Below the pieces are notes generated by a model. That model ran no database searches. It saw nothing but the letters and a program-made list of their open reading frames with translations, and had not been told where the DNA came from. From NCBI RefSeq assembly GCF_003319115.1, contig NZ_QOHF01000015.1, positions 62,001 through 126,000 on the forward strand: a stretch of 64,000 bases of DNA, in the 5' to 3' direction. A program made the translations under genes and the position numbers. Source of the DNA: Geodermatophilus sp. TF02-6. Lineage in GTDB: Bacteria; Actinomycetota; Actinomycetes; Mycobacteriales; Geodermatophilaceae. Shown here piece after piece: positions 12,746 to 23,772 of this stretch; the stretch's first letter is position 1, and each line of letters starts with the position of its first letter.

Positions 12746-13918
12746 TCAGCCGACCGGATGGGCGGCCTCGGCGGCGGCCGTGGCGGCGCGCAGCACCTCC
12801 TTCACCGGCAGGCCGCGGTCGCGGGCCAGCGCGGCGACGTCCTCGAACTCGACGCCCACGTTGACCACCCGGTCGCCGACCCGCGCGACCTTGACGCCGA
12901 CCCGGCCGCCGAGCACCTCGACCGACGTCGACGTCCGCTCCAGCGCGACCTTGCCGACGGGCACCACCCGCAGCCCGATGGTCGACGTGGTGGCGAACAC
13001 CGCGGCCTGCACCGCGGCGACCGCGTCCGGCCGGCACAGCGCGGACAGGGTGTGCGCCGGGCGCCCCTTCTTCATCAGGATCGGGGTGAGCCAGGCGTCC
13101 GACGCCCCGGCGGCCAGCAGGGCGTCGAGCACACCGGGCCACAGCCGGGGGTCGAGGTCGTCGACGTTGGCCTCCAGCACGACCGGGGACGCCGGCGAGG
13201 ACCCGGCCGGCTCGCCCAGGACCAGCCGGACGACGTTGGGCAGCTCGGCCGGGTCGCGGGCGCCGGCGCCCACCCCGACCCGGTCCACCCGCACCGGCGG
13301 CAGCGGCGTCCACTCGTCGACCCGGGCGGCCAGCAGCGCCGCGCCGGTGGGCGTGCACGTCTCGGCCGGCACCGGCCCGGCGTGCACCGGCGCCCCGGCG
13401 AGCAGCTCCAGCACCGCCGGCGCCGGGACCGGGACGACGCCGTGCGCGCCGCGGGACGAGCCGCTGCCCAGCGCGACCGGGGAGGCGCTCAGCCGGGTCA
13501 GGCCCAGGTGCTCGAAGCCGGCGACCACCCCGACGACGTCGGCCAGGGCGTCGAGCGCGCCGACCTCGTGGAAGTGGACGTCGTTCGGGTCGACCCGGTG
13601 CACCCGGCCCTCGGCGAGGGCCAGCCGCGCGAAGACCGCCAGCGCGCCGTCCCGCACGGCGGGAGAGAGGTCGGCGTCGGCCAGCAGCGTCCGCACATCG
13701 GCCCAGGTGCGGGTCGCGGTGGACGGCGGTGCCTGCACGTGCACCCGGGTGGCGCCCAACCCGTGCCGGGTCACCTGCTCGGCCAGCAGCCGGACCGGCT
13801 CGACCGGCAGCGCGGCGACCGCGGCCGCCGGCACCTCCAGCGGCACCCCGGCGTCGACCAGCGCGCCCAGCAGCAGGTCACCGCTGCAGCCGGCGGACAG
13901 GTCCAGCCACCCGATCAC
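12746..13918 (-). CDS. larC: LarC, nickel-pincer cofactor biosynthesis (Ni insertion)
   Basis: A 390-residue protein starting with GTG (VIGWLDLSAGCSGDLLLGAL) six bases after a TACGGT box, suggesting its own leaderless transcript. Diagnostic segments are HRVDPNDVHFHEVGALDALA, PTGAALLA, LEANVDDLDPRLWPGVLDAL and TPILMKKGRP. LarC is the CTP-dependent cyclometallase that inserts nickel into the pyridinium dithiocarboxylate nucleotide of lactate racemase and other LarA-type enzymes. The complete protein is one ORF; in Lactobacillus plantarum it is made by programmed frameshifting. larB is immediately upstream, but no larE or larA is in the window. Confidence 0.93.
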   Translation of the reverse strand: MIGWLDLSAGCSGDLLLGALVDAGVPLEVPAAAVAALPVEPVRLLAEQVTRHGLGATRVHVQAPPSTATRTWADVRTLLADADLSPAVRDGALAVFARLALAEGRVHRVDPNDVHFHEVGALDALADVVGVVAGFEHLGLTRLSASPVALGSGSSRGAHGVVPVPAPAVLELLAGAPVHAGPVPAETCTPTGAALLAARVDEWTPLPPVRVDRVGVGAGARDPAELPNVVRLVLGEPAGSSPASPVVLEANVDDLDPRLWPGVLDALLAAGASDAWLTPILMKKGRPAHTLSALCRPDAVAAVQAAVFATTSTIGLRVVPVGKVALERTSTSVEVLGGRVGVKVARVGDRVVNVGVEFEDVAALARDRGLPVKEVLRAATAAAEAAHPVG

Positions 13919-13937: not shown

Positions 13938-14741
13938 TCAGCCCCTCCGGGACCTCCGGGCGATCCTCGCGGCGAAGACGCCGGCGGCGTGGCCGTCGTC
14001 GATGTTGCTCACCACGACACCCGGCGAGGCCGAGTTGAGCACGGTGAGCAGCGCGCCGAACCCGCCGAAGGAGCCCGGCTGCCCGGTCGAGGTGGGGACG
14101 GCGACGACCGGCACGTCGGTCAGCACGCCGACCAGGCCGGCCAGCGAGGCGTCCGTCCCGGCCACCACCACCAGGCAGTCGACGTCGCCGGGCAGCTCGG
14201 GGGCCCCGGTGCGGCGGCCGCCGCTGACGTCGTCCACCCGCACCACCTCGGTGCCGGTGACCCGGGCGGCGAAGGCGGCCTCGGCGGCCACCGACCGGTC
14301 GCCGCCGACACCGCGCAGCACCCCGATGCGCCCGGCGGGCTCGGGCAGCGGACCCACCGCCGCCGACATCGCCGCGGCGTCGACCGTCGTGTAGGCGTCG
14401 TGCTCGCTGGCCAGCGCCACGAGCGTCTCGGCGGAGGCGCGGACGACGACCGCGGGCCGGTCCGGGAACTCCCGGCGGGCGGTGCGGACCAGCGCGAGCA
14501 CCTGCTCGGTGCTGCGCCCGGTGCCCCAGACGACCTCGGGCTCGGCCGGCCCGTCGCGCAGCGGCGCGGCGGGGGCGGTGCCGACCCCGCCGGACCCGGC
14601 CGGGCGCGCGGTCGCCGGCACCGGGCCCAGGGCCGGTTCGCCGGAGGTGCCCAGGCCGAGCGGCGGGTCGACGGGCTCGACGAGGAGGGAGGCGAAACCG
14701 CCGGGCGCGCCGGCCGGGTCGTCCAGCGGGGAGGGCTGCAC
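13938..14741 (-). CDS. larB: LarB, nickel-pincer cofactor carboxylase
   Basis: If translated from the GTG at 14741 this is a 267-residue protein. That start lies seven bases after TAGGGT, the same leaderless arrangement seen at many genes here. The PurE-like domain is clear from PEVVWGTGRSTEQVLAL, VVVAGTDASLAGLVGVL and NIDDGHAAGVFAARIAR. LarB carboxylates and hydrolyses nicotinic acid adenine dinucleotide to start cofactor synthesis. The first 60 residues are unlike usual LarB N-termini. The same frame is open all the way from the GGDEF gene upstream, so a fused product is also possible. Confidence 0.88.
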   Translation of the reverse strand: MQPSPLDDPAGAPGGFASLLVEPVDPPLGLGTSGEPALGPVPATARPAGSGGVGTAPAAPLRDGPAEPEVVWGTGRSTEQVLALVRTARREFPDRPAVVVRASAETLVALASEHDAYTTVDAAAMSAAVGPLPEPAGRIGVLRGVGGDRSVAAEAAFAARVTGTEVVRVDDVSGGRRTGAPELPGDVDCLVVVAGTDASLAGLVGVLTDVPVVAVPTSTGQPGSFGGFGALLTVLNSASPGVVVSNIDDGHAAGVFAARIARRSRRG

Positions 14742-16832
14742 GGCAGGGACCCTAGGGGCCGCGGAGGCGTCGTCCCGGGGCACGGCGCGGGCCGTGTCCT
14801 CCCCACCGGACCCGTCCGTCACAGCCGTCGCAGCTCGCCCCGGCGGGCCGAACAGCGCGTCCAGCGGACCGTCGCCGGCCCGGGTCTGGGTCACCGTCGA
14901 CAGCCGGACGACGCGGTCGCGGCCGCTGCGCTTGGCGTCGTAGAGCACCCCGTCGGCGGCGGCGAAGAGGGTGCGCCGGTCGTCGCCGCGGGTGGCCGAG
15001 GCGACGCCGACGCTGATCGTCACCGGCAGGTCGACGCCGAGGCCGGCCCAGTCGTGCTCGGCGACCGCCCGGCGGGTGCGCTCCAGCGCCCGCTCGGCCT
15101 GCTCGGCCGTGGTGTCGGGCAGCAGGACGACGAACTCGTCGCCGGCCCAGCGGCACACCTCGTCGGTGTCGCGGACCCCGGCGCAGAGCAGCTCGGCGAC
15201 CGTCCGCAGCACGGCGTCACCGGTCGGGTGGCCGGCGGTGTCGTTGACCTGCTTGAACCGGTCGACGTCGACCACGGCCAGCGCCGGGGCGGACCCCGAG
15301 GACAGCAGACAGTCCAGCGTGGCCTCCGCGTAGCGGCGGTTGGGCAGCCCGGTGAGCGGGTCCTCGTAGGCCTGCCGACGCAGCTGACCGGCGGCCCGCT
15401 CGGTCTCCAGCAGGCTCTTGCGCCGGCCGAACAGCTCCACCCACCGGGTGCGCCGCTCGTCGACCCGGTCCAGCTCGTCGGCGAGGTAGGCCTGCAGGTA
15501 GGGCAGCGCCCGGCCGGCGTCGTCCAGCTCGGCGTGCAGCGTGCACAGCTCGCGCAGCGCCGCCCGGCGCAGCCGCGGCAGGCCGTGCTCGGTCGCCGTC
15601 GCCAGGGCCCGGGCCAGCTGCTCGTCCGCTCCCCGGCCGTCGCCCTGCCGGCGCAGCGCGCGGCCCAGCGCCAGCAGCGCCGTGGCCAGCAGCGCCCGGT
15701 CGCCGGCCGCGGTGGTCGTCCGGACGGCGGCGCGCAGCGGCCCCGCGGCGGCCGCGTGCTCGCCGAGGCCGACCAGGGCCCAGCCGTGCACCACCTGCGC
15801 GCTGACCACGGGGTCGGCCGCCTCCGGCGGGAGCAGCGCCAGCGCCTGCTCGGCCAGCGCGCGGGCCTCGGCGAAGTGCGGCTGCGCCGACTCCGGGACG
15901 CCGTCGTCGAGCAGCGCCTCCCCGAGCTCGGCGCACAGCTCGCCGAGGCGGGTGGCGGCGCGGGCCACCAGGACGTCGGGCCCGCCGTCCGGGTGCCCGT
16001 CCCCGCGCCGTCCCAGGGCGCCGGAGGCCGCGGCCGCGACGGCGGCCTGGTGCGCCCGCCGCTGGTAGTCCAGGGCCAGCGGCATGAGCTCGAGGTCGGC
16101 CAGCACCCCGGCCAGCGCCGTCAGGGTCTCCACCAGCAGCGCGGACGGCGGCAGCTCCGGGTCGAGCAGGCTGGCCGCCTCCACGGCCTCGTCCATGGCG
16201 GCGTCGATGCGGCGGGAGAGCAGCTCGATGCGGGCGTGCCGGGCCAGGCCGGCGGCGCGCTGCAGCTCGTCGTCGGTGGCCTCGAACGCGGCCTTCGCGG
16301 AGCGGACCAGCGCGATGGCCAGCGCGGCGCGGGACGCCGGCTCGGTGCGCGCACCCCCGTCCTGCGCGCCGTCGATGAGCTCGGCCAGGCCGGCGTGCAG
16401 GTCGAGGGCGGGCGGGGAGCCGGTGCCGTGCGGGAGCCCGACCGGGTCGCCGAGGAGGGTGAACCCGGCCTGCCGCAGCCGGCGCACCAGCAGCTCGGCG
16501 CGCAGCGTGTCGGCCCAGGCCCGGCCCAGGTCGACGGGTGCAGGGTCGACGGGTGGGGAGCCGGCGGGTGCGTCGTCGGCCGCGCCGTCGCGCGGGGCGG
16601 GCGCCACGTGGGGGGAGGGGTCGGTGCCGACGTCGGCCAGCAGCTCCTCGGCGTCGTCGAGCCGCCAGCTCGCCAGGGCAGCGGTCACCCGCTGGTGCAG
16701 GGCTCCCGGTGGCACGAGCGCACTGTGCCCGCCGTCCCGGTCGGTGTCGAGCACCGGTGGGGAGGCGCGCGGGGCGCCGTCCCGCTCGCCGTCCGTCTGG
16801 CCACAGGGGTCCCACCCCGCCTCCGCCGTCAC
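13938..16832 (-). CDS. TPR-like/GGDEF diguanylate cyclase, in frame with LarB
   Basis: From the GTG at 16832, after GGGAGGAC, the frame is open for 964 codons. Residues 1 to about 500 are helical TPR-like sensor sequence, followed by a GGDEF domain (YEDPLTGLPNRRYAE, VDVDRFKQVNDTAGH). The catalytic motif is AGDEF at 563-567, and an inhibitory-site RxxD (RDTD) lies five residues before it. Cyclases of this kind make c-di-GMP from GTP. No stop separates the GGDEF domain from LarB, whose own GTG would be codon 698. The start overlaps the other GGDEF gene's stop by GTGA, so the two are coupled. Confidence 0.82.
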   Translation of the reverse strand: MTAEAGWDPCGQTDGERDGAPRASPPVLDTDRDGGHSALVPPGALHQRVTAALASWRLDDAEELLADVGTDPSPHVAPAPRDGAADDAPAGSPPVDPAPVDLGRAWADTLRAELLVRRLRQAGFTLLGDPVGLPHGTGSPPALDLHAGLAELIDGAQDGGARTEPASRAALAIALVRSAKAAFEATDDELQRAAGLARHARIELLSRRIDAAMDEAVEAASLLDPELPPSALLVETLTALAGVLADLELMPLALDYQRRAHQAAVAAAASGALGRRGDGHPDGGPDVLVARAATRLGELCAELGEALLDDGVPESAQPHFAEARALAEQALALLPPEAADPVVSAQVVHGWALVGLGEHAAAAGPLRAAVRTTTAAGDRALLATALLALGRALRRQGDGRGADEQLARALATATEHGLPRLRRAALRELCTLHAELDDAGRALPYLQAYLADELDRVDERRTRWVELFGRRKSLLETERAAGQLRRQAYEDPLTGLPNRRYAEATLDCLLSSGSAPALAVVDVDRFKQVNDTAGHPTGDAVLRTVAELLCAGVRDTDEVCRWAGDEFVVLLPDTTAEQAERALERTRRAVAEHDWAGLGVDLPVTISVGVASATRGDDRRTLFAAADGVLYDAKRSGRDRVVRLSTVTQTRAGDGPLDALFGPPGRAATAVTDGSGGEDTARAVPRDDASAAPRVPAVQPSPLDDPAGAPGGFASLLVEPVDPPLGLGTSGEPALGPVPATARPAGSGGVGTAPAAPLRDGPAEPEVVWGTGRSTEQVLALVRTARREFPDRPAVVVRASAETLVALASEHDAYTTVDAAAMSAAVGPLPEPAGRIGVLRGVGGDRSVAAEAAFAARVTGTEVVRVDDVSGGRRTGAPELPGDVDCLVVVAGTDASLAGLVGVLTDVPVVAVPTSTGQPGSFGGFGALLTVLNSASPGVVVSNIDDGHAAGVFAARIARRSRRG

Positions 16833-18478
16833 GGGTCCTCCCGCGGAGGCCGGCCGCCGGGGGCGCGCACCCGGTTGCGGCCACCGCGCTTGGCGGAGAA
16901 CAGGTACAGGTCGGCGGTGTCGAACAGCGAGCGCCAGCCGAGCGGCTCGTCGGCGGCCGGCGGTGCGCTGGCCACCCCGATGCTCACGGTCACCGGCTCG
17001 GGCAGCTGCAGGTCGTCCCAGTCGGCGTCGGCCACGGCAGCGCGCAGCCGGTCCATGGCGACCAGCGCCTGGCCCTCGGTCGCCGTCGGCAGGACGACGA
17101 GGAACTCGTCCCCCGCCCAGCGGTACACCTCGTCGCCGGCGCGGCTGTGCTCGCGCAGCAGGTCGGCCACCCGGCGCAGCACCTCGTCGCCGTGCGAGTG
17201 CGAGGTGTCGTCGTTGACCTCCTTGAACCGGTCGACGTCCACGACGGCCAGCGACAGCGGCTCCTCGCCGGTGCGCAGACCGGCCAGCCGGCGCTCGGCG
17301 CTGCGCCGGTTGCCCAGTCCGGTGAGCGGGTCCTCCAGCGCGTGCCGGCGCAGGACGGCGGCCTGGCGCTCGGCCTCCCGCAGCCGGCTGCGCCGCACGA
17401 ACATCTCCGCCCACAGCTCGCGGCCGCGGGCGTGCGCCCGGCCGGTGTCGGCGCGGTAGGCCTCCAGCCAGTGCAGCGCCTCGGCGGGCCGGCCCATCGC
17501 CGCGGTGCCCTGGCCGAGCTCCAGCAGGCACTGGCGGTAGCGCCGGCGGTCGCCGGTGGCGGCGAAGGCCCCGGCGGCGTCGACCAGCAGGTCGGTGGCC
17601 TGCCCGCCGTGCCCGCCCCCGGACTGGGCCTGGGCCAGGCGGGTGAGCAGCCGGGCGAGCACCAGGTCGGCGTAGCCGCGCAGCCAGGTACTGCCGTCGC
17701 GGTGGATGCGCCGGTGCGCCCGCCGCATCGGGCCGACGGCGTCGTCGACCTGGCCGCGGCCGGCCATCGCCCAGGCCTGGACGACGTCGAGCAGGTCCTG
17801 GTCGCCCGGGTCGGGTTCGACGCCCAGCTCCCGGGCGGCGCTCGCGCAGTCGACGGCCGTCGCGGCCAGCTCGGCGGAGCGCTCGGCCCGGCCGCGCCGG
17901 TGCAGGGTCTGGGCCAGCTCGGCGTGCTGCTGCGCGCACAGCTGCAGCAGCCGCCACCGGTCGGCCGGGTCGGGCAGCCGGGCGGCGACCCGGTGCCCCT
18001 CCAGCGCGGAGGCGACGGCGAGCTCCTCCAGGTCGAGGGCGGCCAGGGTCAGCGACAGCCACAGGTGGGCCTGGTGGAGGGCGCGGGAGGGCTCCGCGGC
18101 GCTCGGCTCGGCGAGCAGGCTGGCGTCGACGGCCAGCAGCATGGCGGCGTCGACGTGGTCGGCGGTGACCTCGACGTGGGCCAGGTAGGCCAGCGTCAGG
18201 GCGGTCTGCGCGTCCGGCCGGCACCGGCCGAGGGCCTCGCGGGCCGCCGCCACCCCGGCCGCGGCGGACCCGCGGTCGCCGTCCAGCAGCTGTCGGCGGG
18301 CGGCCAGCGCGTGCCGCCAGGCGGTCCAGCGGGGATCGGTCGAGGCGGTCAGCGCCGCCTCGGCGCGGTCGTGCTCGGCGGTGAAGGTGGTGGGGTCGTC
18401 GCGGTCGCTGGCGGCCAGCAGACGCCAGAGCGCATCGTCGAGGTCACCCTCGGTCAGGTGGCTTGGGCGGGAGGTCAC
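16829..18478 (-). CDS. TPR-like/GGDEF diguanylate cyclase
   Basis: A 549-residue cytoplasmic protein with a GTG start. Residues 1-370 are alanine-rich helical repeats resembling TPRs, followed by a GGDEF domain (LEDPLTGLGNRRSAERR, VDVDRFKEVNDDTSH). The active-site motif is AGDEF (455-459), preceded by RAGD as the product-inhibition site. No PAS, GAF or EAL domain is present. The same layout in the next gene and their four-base overlap suggest a tandem duplication. It is divergent from pheA across 77 bp. Confidence 0.9.
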   Translation of the reverse strand: MTSRPSHLTEGDLDDALWRLLAASDRDDPTTFTAEHDRAEAALTASTDPRWTAWRHALAARRQLLDGDRGSAAAGVAAAREALGRCRPDAQTALTLAYLAHVEVTADHVDAAMLLAVDASLLAEPSAAEPSRALHQAHLWLSLTLAALDLEELAVASALEGHRVAARLPDPADRWRLLQLCAQQHAELAQTLHRRGRAERSAELAATAVDCASAARELGVEPDPGDQDLLDVVQAWAMAGRGQVDDAVGPMRRAHRRIHRDGSTWLRGYADLVLARLLTRLAQAQSGGGHGGQATDLLVDAAGAFAATGDRRRYRQCLLELGQGTAAMGRPAEALHWLEAYRADTGRAHARGRELWAEMFVRRSRLREAERQAAVLRRHALEDPLTGLGNRRSAERRLAGLRTGEEPLSLAVVDVDRFKEVNDDTSHSHGDEVLRRVADLLREHSRAGDEVYRWAGDEFLVVLPTATEGQALVAMDRLRAAVADADWDDLQLPEPVTVSIGVASAPPAADEPLGWRSLFDTADLYLFSAKRGGRNRVRAPGGRPPREDP

Positions 18479-22409: not shown

Positions 22410-23747
22410 TCAGGCGAGCGCTCGCAGTCGTTCACTGAGGTCGCTCGGTGGCACGAAGACGAAGGCCTTGCTCTCTCTGCGCTTCTCGAGCAGGCCACGG
22501 TCGAAGAGATCGAGAAGGTCCGTCCGAGCTGTCTGATAGACGACGTTGTGGGACCGCCGGTGCCCCTCGATGGTGTAGTGCGCGTGGGGGTCCCGAAGTG
22601 CATCGCCGAGAAGTGCGCGCTGCCGGTGGTTCAGGCCACTGTCACCCCGGACCAGGGCTTCGACCTCCTGCACCTCGCGGATCTTGCGCTCCAGGTAGTC
22701 CTGGAGGTCACAAAGGGCACGCCTGAGGACCTCAAGGTGGTACCGGATGAAGTACGTCAGGTCGTTGTCGTCCGTCTCCGTCAGCAGGAAGCTCTGTGCA
22801 TAGGTCGTGGGTGCCTTGCGCAGGATGGTGCTGATGGTGAGGAACTCGGCTAGCCAGTACCCCTGGCGCAGCATCGACCAGTAGAAGATGGCACGTGCCG
22901 TCCTGCCGTTCCCATCCTCGAAGTAGTGATCGTATCCGAGCCAGAAGTGGAGGATGACGGACCGCACGACGGGATGGATCCAGGCGTCTTGCCCTCCTTC
23001 GTTGGCGAAGTCACAGAGGGCCCGCAACCGCTTGGGGAGTTCCTCGGCGGGCGGCGGCGTGTGCAGGAGTTGATCACCGTCGCCCCACACCTTCACTTGC
23101 TCCTCGTTCGGGTGCTGTAGGCGCCCCGCCGCGGTCGGATTGTCCAGAGTCCCGTCCGTGACCAGGCGATGAACCTCGAACACGAACTTCGGCGTGAGTG
23201 GTTGATCACGATGAGCCGTGACGTACTGCATGGCCCGGAAGTTGTTGACGATCATCTGCTCACTGCGATCACGGGGTTGCCGTCCCGTGCGGAGCATCTC
23301 CTTCGCCACTCTCCGGCTCGTGGAGGCACCCTCCAGTTGAGACGAGGTGATGGCCTCCTCCATGAGGCTCGTGATGACGTACCGGTCGCGCGTCGCGGGG
23401 TTGGTCACGCTGTCTGCAATCCCGATGCGCCCGCTCGCCTCTTGGTCGATCTTGTGCAGTGACTCGAGGGTGATGTCCGGGAGTGTGAACCAGAATGCCG
23501 AGCCCTCGGTGTCGAGGAGCGGGACGGACCGGCGGCCGGCCCCGCGGGTCAGCTTGAGCCGGAGCCACCACTCGCGGTGCGTCAAGCCCTCGGGGGCCGA
23601 CAGGTGCAGGAGCTTGTCCCAGTGCAGGTAACCGTCGTCTCCAGGTACGCCCGTCCCCAAGGGCTGTGAGATCACCCGGGCGATCCGCTCGGGGCGGATC
23701 TCCGCGAGTAGTTCGTCGAGGGAGGGTGGAGTCAGGGGAACGTGCAT
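22410..23747 (-). CDS. Fic-family protein with inhibitory helix and winged-helix C-terminus
   Basis: About 445 residues from the ATG at 23747 (a GTG at 23762 is also in frame). Fic enzymes transfer AMP or another nucleotide moiety to protein hydroxyls. The core motif is HYFEDGNGRTAR with the catalytic His at about 274. An N-terminal inhibitory helix TSSQLEGAS with the blocking Glu at about 139 marks a self-inhibited class II Fic. The C-terminus (GHRRSHNVVYQTARTDLLDL) resembles a winged helix. Base composition is visibly less G+C-rich than its neighbours, suggesting transfer. Two matched dyads lie just upstream. Confidence 0.92.
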   Translation of the reverse strand: MHVPLTPPSLDELLAEIRPERIARVISQPLGTGVPGDDGYLHWDKLLHLSAPEGLTHREWWLRLKLTRGAGRRSVPLLDTEGSAFWFTLPDITLESLHKIDQEASGRIGIADSVTNPATRDRYVITSLMEEAITSSQLEGASTSRRVAKEMLRTGRQPRDRSEQMIVNNFRAMQYVTAHRDQPLTPKFVFEVHRLVTDGTLDNPTAAGRLQHPNEEQVKVWGDGDQLLHTPPPAEELPKRLRALCDFANEGGQDAWIHPVVRSVILHFWLGYDHYFEDGNGRTARAIFYWSMLRQGYWLAEFLTISTILRKAPTTYAQSFLLTETDDNDLTYFIRYHLEVLRRALCDLQDYLERKIREVQEVEALVRGDSGLNHRQRALLGDALRDPHAHYTIEGHRRSHNVVYQTARTDLLDLFDRGLLEKRRESKAFVFVPPSDLSERLRALA

Positions 23748-23772
23748 CAGCTCTCTAATCACACCGGTGTCG

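Follow-up and report, generated by a model that had tools for sequence, protein, structure and literature searches.

Diguanylate cyclases of the GGDEF type are the closest described systems for the front half of the protein treated here: the nearest NCBIfam models are SiaD and PRK09894 (PDB 7e6g), and the features in common are a complete GGDEF domain, an AGDEF motif, an RxxD site and the absence of an EAL domain. For the rear half, the comparison is with LarB of L. plantarum (PDB 7mj0/7mj1), which belongs to the established pathway of nickel-pincer nucleotide (NPN) synthesis (PMC11796402, PMC9283937); LarB hydrolyses a phosphoanhydride, too (PMC11796402). A third point of reference is the leaderless genes of Actinobacteria, whose promoters take the form of a TANNNT -10 box near the start codon (PMC3898074, PMC3160421).

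The stretch of DNA analysed here, called the window, is 64,000 nucleotides long and comes from Geodermatophilus sp. TF02-6, and the nearest named relatives of its genome are found in Geodermatophilus, Blastococcus and Trujillonella of the Geodermatophilaceae. Members of this family are desert and rock bacteria, and to our knowledge c-di-GMP signalling has hardly been studied in desiccation- and radiation-tolerant actinobacteria. On its minus strand the window carries a gene in which a GGDEF cyclase and a LarB-like domain, hereafter LarB', share one frame (Table 1). Its product differs from the GGDEF cyclases in the papers searched by pairing a TPR input with a LarB-like domain at the C-terminus, and it scores below the equivalog cut-offs of SiaD and PRK09894. 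Unlike LarB, LarB' falls under the curated cut-off, is fused to GGDEF and is kept without other lar genes. Within the gene lies a candidate leaderless start, which resembles those of actinobacterial genes in the type of its box and in the position of the box before a GTG, but which sits inside the frame of a larger protein and is known here from sequence. The earlier note on this DNA knew of no described cyclase-LarB fusion, and likewise in the open-access literature that we searched we found neither a GGDEF-LarB architecture nor a LarB pseudoenzyme, and no case of a regulatory domain for c-di-GMP that arose from an enzyme of cofactor biosynthesis. If the reading preferred below is true, desiccation- and radiation-tolerant actinobacteria would have in LarB' an input domain that is new to c-di-GMP signalling.

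Table 1. Features of the fused gene and its neighbours, in window coordinates
Feature	Residues	Position	Strand	Basis or remark
Fused gene, TPR - GGDEF - linker - LarB-like domain	964 aa	13938..16832	(-)	GTG start; in-frame homologues in relatives
TPR-like helical solenoid	198-435	15528..16241	(-)	Pfam TPR_MalT (MalT-like), E 7.7e-8, below cut-off
GGDEF diguanylate cyclase domain	488-640	14913..15371	(-)	Pfam, E 1.5e-38
RDTD inhibitory-site motif (RxxD)	554-557	15162..15173	(-)	Alignment; five residues before AGDEF
AGDEF active-site motif	563-567	15132..15146	(-)	Sequence and alignment
Pro/Ala-rich linker, predicted disordered	646-762	14547..14897	(-)	Length varies by multiples of 3 among relatives
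TAGGGT, TANNNT-type -10 box		14749-14754	(-)	Exactly 7 nt before GTG 14741
Internal in-frame GTG, candidate leaderless start of short LarB' product	698	14739..14741	(-)	Box spacing and conservation
Conserved short linker motif GGFA(S/P)LL	711-717	14682..14702	(-)	Alignment
LarB-like (LarB') domain	765-959	13956..14540	(-)	NCBIfam LarB, E 2.2e-35; Pfam AIRC, E 1e-8
Ala935 codon	935	14028..14030	(-)	Aligns with L. plantarum LarB Cys221 (7mj0 numbering)
Upstream tandem cyclase gene with GGDEF		16829..18478	(-)	TGA overlaps GTG of the fusion (GTGA, 16829-16832)
larC (nickel insertion protein), downstream		12746..13918	(-)	Orphan in the window's genome; not at this place in many relatives

One frame for cyclase and LarB-like domain

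The minus-strand frame from 16832 to 13938 runs for 964 codons without a stop and terminates at TGA, and the description in the earlier note, a stop-free frame opening at a GTG with TPR-like, GGDEF and LarB-type parts, is borne out by reading and by profile matches. In the AF2 model the TPR solenoid (with pLDDT values of mostly 84-97 between about residues 285 and 450) is followed by a long helix, residues 439-489, which we read as a signalling helix and which leads into GGDEF, and then come a linker of low confidence and the LarB-like domain. How much does such an open frame mean in GC-rich DNA? The same frame is also open upstream to 18224, across the neighbouring gene, a frame of 1156 codons runs over it on the opposite strand, and long spurious frames are common in the window. 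Thus, openness alone is no evidence for a fusion, and comparison has to settle the matter.

Among 37 Geodermatophilaceae genomes compared, the gene is present in 34 and was not found in three (G029, G032 and G034). When the end of GGDEF and the start of LarB were anchored in every locus, the two domains turned out to be in phase and free of stops in 38 distinct genomes, and five more bring the number to 43 distinct Geodermatophilaceae sequences. The sole exception found is locus L068 of G017, a genome without any other lar genes, where a single-base deletion in the linker breaks the frame; this may be a sequencing error or a recent mutation or loss. Linkers of the 38 sequences range from 198 to 495 nt with 29 different values, every one of which is a multiple of three, and the same holds for all 34 distinct lengths after the five further genomes are added. 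Of the 4038 linker codons read in frame 0 none is a stop; the other two frames contain 43 and 19 stops. Among 101 genomes sampled across the order, LarB' lies in a long frame only in Geodermatophilaceae, and LarB matches outside the family lie in frames of 227-590 aa. Frame conservation in relatives, proposed as a check in the earlier note, is therefore what was found, and as judged by these comparisons the open frame is a conserved cyclase-LarB-like fusion and not an accident of GC-rich DNA. Since LarB' lies downstream in the same open frame, a ribosome that has finished GGDEF must enter LarB', and in that sense the long product is conserved.

The cyclase half looks intact. GGDEF stands far above its curated Pfam cut-off (132.5 bits against 23.8), and the AGDEF motif and the RxxD site, both of which had been named in the earlier note, are present. 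Residues of the metal/GTP site, namely D491, N498, D522, K527, N530, D531, H535, D539, AGDEF and K634, are invariant in all 34 aligned proteins, and so is the RxxD inhibitory site; AGDEY replaces AGDEF in L054 only, a sequence additional to the 34. The cyclase half of the fusion should make the messenger c-di-GMP.

A LarB-like domain without the catalytic cysteine

LarB' is homologous to L. plantarum LarB over about 195 residues (phmmer E 2.8e-26), and the best Foldseek matches of its AF2 model, which is of moderate confidence (pLDDT 69), are 7mj1 and 7mj0 (E about 1e-9, TM about 0.6); matches of this LarB fold include AMP- and NAD-bound entries. The predicted fold is thus that of LarB, a PurE-like one. 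Its score, 122-126 bits, is under the NCBIfam LarB cut-off of 175, and the fused copies listed reach 61-170 bits. A complete LarB, as had been claimed, it is not: the match begins at profile position 12, the linker replaces the N-terminal segment of LarB, and Ala935 stands where the cysteine should be.

For a comparison of residues, 38 fused copies were set against 33 canonical LarB proteins and residues 48-243 of L. plantarum LarB. Cys221 of L. plantarum LarB, which we take to be the catalytic residue, is present in 33 of 33 canonical proteins and in none of the 38 fused ones, where the position is occupied by Ala in 26 and Ser in 7. Its catalytic role was reportedly described in Rankin 2021, the LarB mechanism paper, and the assignment rests on this and on the invariance of the cysteine in the 33 canonical proteins. 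Fused copies are also without K57, T126, H158, R159, Y204 and G205 (L. plantarum numbering), and the H-R and G-T-S motifs of LarB are lost, while R80, D128, E134, T200, S201 and D231 are kept in at least 95% of them. There are 55 columns conserved in both groups; 42 hold the same residue and 13 hold a different fixed residue in fused and canonical proteins, and fixed changes from canonical LarB include G to A895 (38/38), K to R773 (37/38) and G to R873 (34/38). In a tree the fused domains all group together as a single clade, set apart by a long branch (about 1.5 substitutions per site). Purifying selection acts on LarB': dN/dS in close pairs is mostly 0.06-0.37, with one pair at 0.43, which is similar to or somewhat above that of GGDEF, and pairs without other lar genes give 0.066 (L021/L026), 0.057 (L024/L030) and 0.13 (L024/L029). 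Constrained by purifying selection and carrying fixed substitutions of its own, the domain looks repurposed and not decaying.

Maintenance without the nickel-pincer pathway

Genome searches found no LarA, no LarC, and no LarE or canonical LarB over the cut-off in twelve carriers of the fusion (G001, G002, G004, G006, G007, G010, G011, G012, G017, G023, G026 and G028), and eleven of them keep the fusion in frame, the twelfth being G017 with its single-base deletion. In the window's genome (G000) there is one LarC, adjoining the fusion; neither LarE nor LarA was found there, and canonical LarB survives only as a remnant of 42-55 codons in a locus partly deleted relative to G022. In short, the fusion is maintained independently of other lar genes. 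As to the remnant itself, 42 matched codons lie at about L162:2565-2690 (L162 being G000 C42:261500-267500), where larB and larE stand side by side and intact in the relative G022; G000 has lost the greater part of the two genes by deletion, which leaves LarC an orphan. Many relatives with LarE carry a separate canonical LarB. A separate larA-larE-larB-larC cluster is seen elsewhere in G003, G008, G009, G013, G014, G015, G024 and G025, and it apparently replaces the larC beside the fusion. It is to be noted for annotation that 'LarB' matches in Geodermatophilaceae are no evidence of NPN synthesis.

The linker and a candidate internal start

Within the linker, F713 and L717 of the short conserved motif are invariant in 34 rows, and the only helix predicted in the linker spans residues 713-716. 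In L057 the linker grows to 495 nt through an in-frame tandem repeat of PPTAPPSAPPSV-type units.

That LarB' might also be made alone from the GTG at 14741, with TAGGGT seven bases before it, was a suggestion of the earlier note, and the box has proved to be conserved beyond chance: 14 of 38 genomes have a TANNNT with a spacing of exactly 7 nt to an in-frame GTG, against 0.08 expected from codon shuffling of the linkers, and the remainder of these frames, 76 kb in all, has no such box at that distance from an in-frame start. It is found in several genera, and its middle letters vary (TAGGGT, TACGGT, TAGTGT, TAGCGT and TACCGT). In the other 24 of the 38 genomes the box is missing, yet none of the 38 has a stop between GGDEF and LarB'. 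That the internal promoter serves mainly larC was considered and rejected, since presence of the box does not go with adjacency to larC. By its position and conservation, the internal leaderless start is credible, and it could yield a second, short LarB-like product in many species. This arrangement of a long and a short product is open to direct testing.

Possible function and origin

What, then, may a LarB-like domain do behind a cyclase? The best explanation, to which we give a probability of roughly 0.6, is a TPR-regulated cyclase with a C-terminal regulatory module derived from LarB but without LarB catalysis, made also in a short form in many species; the LarB' copy is now probably a regulatory part of a signalling protein. 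In one long protein, a TPR-regulated diguanylate cyclase would carry the PurE-like domain on a flexible C-terminal linker of about 120 residues. We infer that LarB' probably binds a small ligand in the rebuilt LarB pocket, or holds cyclase subunits together, or both, and that dimerisation of GGDEF and output of c-di-GMP would respond to it. The internal leaderless promoter would make the LarB-like domain alone in many species, and this short form could co-assemble with the long one and tune the cyclase. Against this reading, LarB' without its H-R and G-T-S motifs may perhaps bind no nucleotides, it could have an activity independent of the cysteine, or the TPR part may be the sole input of the cyclase, as inputs are usually N-terminal. 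In a bolder form of the same idea, a former nickel-cofactor enzyme would serve throughout the family as a C-terminal sensor of a ligand, possibly a pyridine or adenine nucleotide; it would control c-di-GMP synthesis, and the internal promoter would supply a free sensor copy tuning the long form. This form is tentative and on balance doubtful.

Other explanations have to be weighed against these. A chance opening in GC-rich DNA or an assembly error, an idea prompted by antisense frames of more than 1000 codons and encouraged by the many long spurious frames of the window, has practically no probability left: in-frame conservation rules out the former, and agreement of tens of independently sequenced genomes on the same fusion rules out the latter. 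Hardly more tenable is the proposal of the earlier note, in which LarB' functions as LarB and the fusion connects c-di-GMP signalling with nickel-pincer cofactor synthesis. Homology to LarB speaks for it, and so does the larC that follows the fusion directly in the window, as it does in several relatives, but this proposal is largely refuted by the loss of the cysteine in all 38 copies and of both motifs, by the twelve carriers without other lar genes, by the lack of LarE, LarA and an intact LarB in the window's genome, and by the separate canonical LarB of many relatives that have LarE.

It is improbable, too, that only a short LarB' from the internal start matters and that the long frame is harmless read-through. 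The excess of correctly spaced boxes across genera would suit such a view, but the frame stays open in all 38 genomes even though 24 have no box, the linker has not one stop in the frame that joins the domains, and a ribosome completing GGDEF has to continue into LarB' anyway. Somewhat less remote, though still unlikely, is an enzyme whose chemistry has changed and needs no cysteine. It might, for instance, cleave a dinucleotide of the pyridine or adenine type, and its fusion to the cyclase would let that metabolism be channelled or reported on. Strong purifying selection on LarB' and new conserved residues around the pocket (TSTGQPG replacing TSVGYGA) are in favour of this reading, as is the phosphoanhydride hydrolysis of LarB (PMC11796402); on the other hand, several canonical pocket residues, among them H158, R159, T126 and C221 (L. 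plantarum numbering), have no single conserved replacement, which suits binding over catalysis.

As for the origin of the regulatory module, a leaderless larB-like gene beside larC may have been joined to the cyclase through loss of the cyclase stop. Later the cysteine would have been lost, and some lineages would also have given up the box and larC.

The neighbourhood of the fusion

The order of the locus is pheA, cyclase, fusion, an optional larC and MFS; larC comes and goes, and the fusion stays. The tandem pair of cyclases is conserved in the relatives examined, and the GTGA overlap between upstream cyclase and fusion is seen also in L048 and L049. Co-translation of the two cyclases is conceivable, and so is heterodimer formation between them. 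A few kb from the fusion locus, at 22410-23762 on the minus strand, there is a gene for a Fic/DOC-domain protein (Pfam E 1.3e-14).
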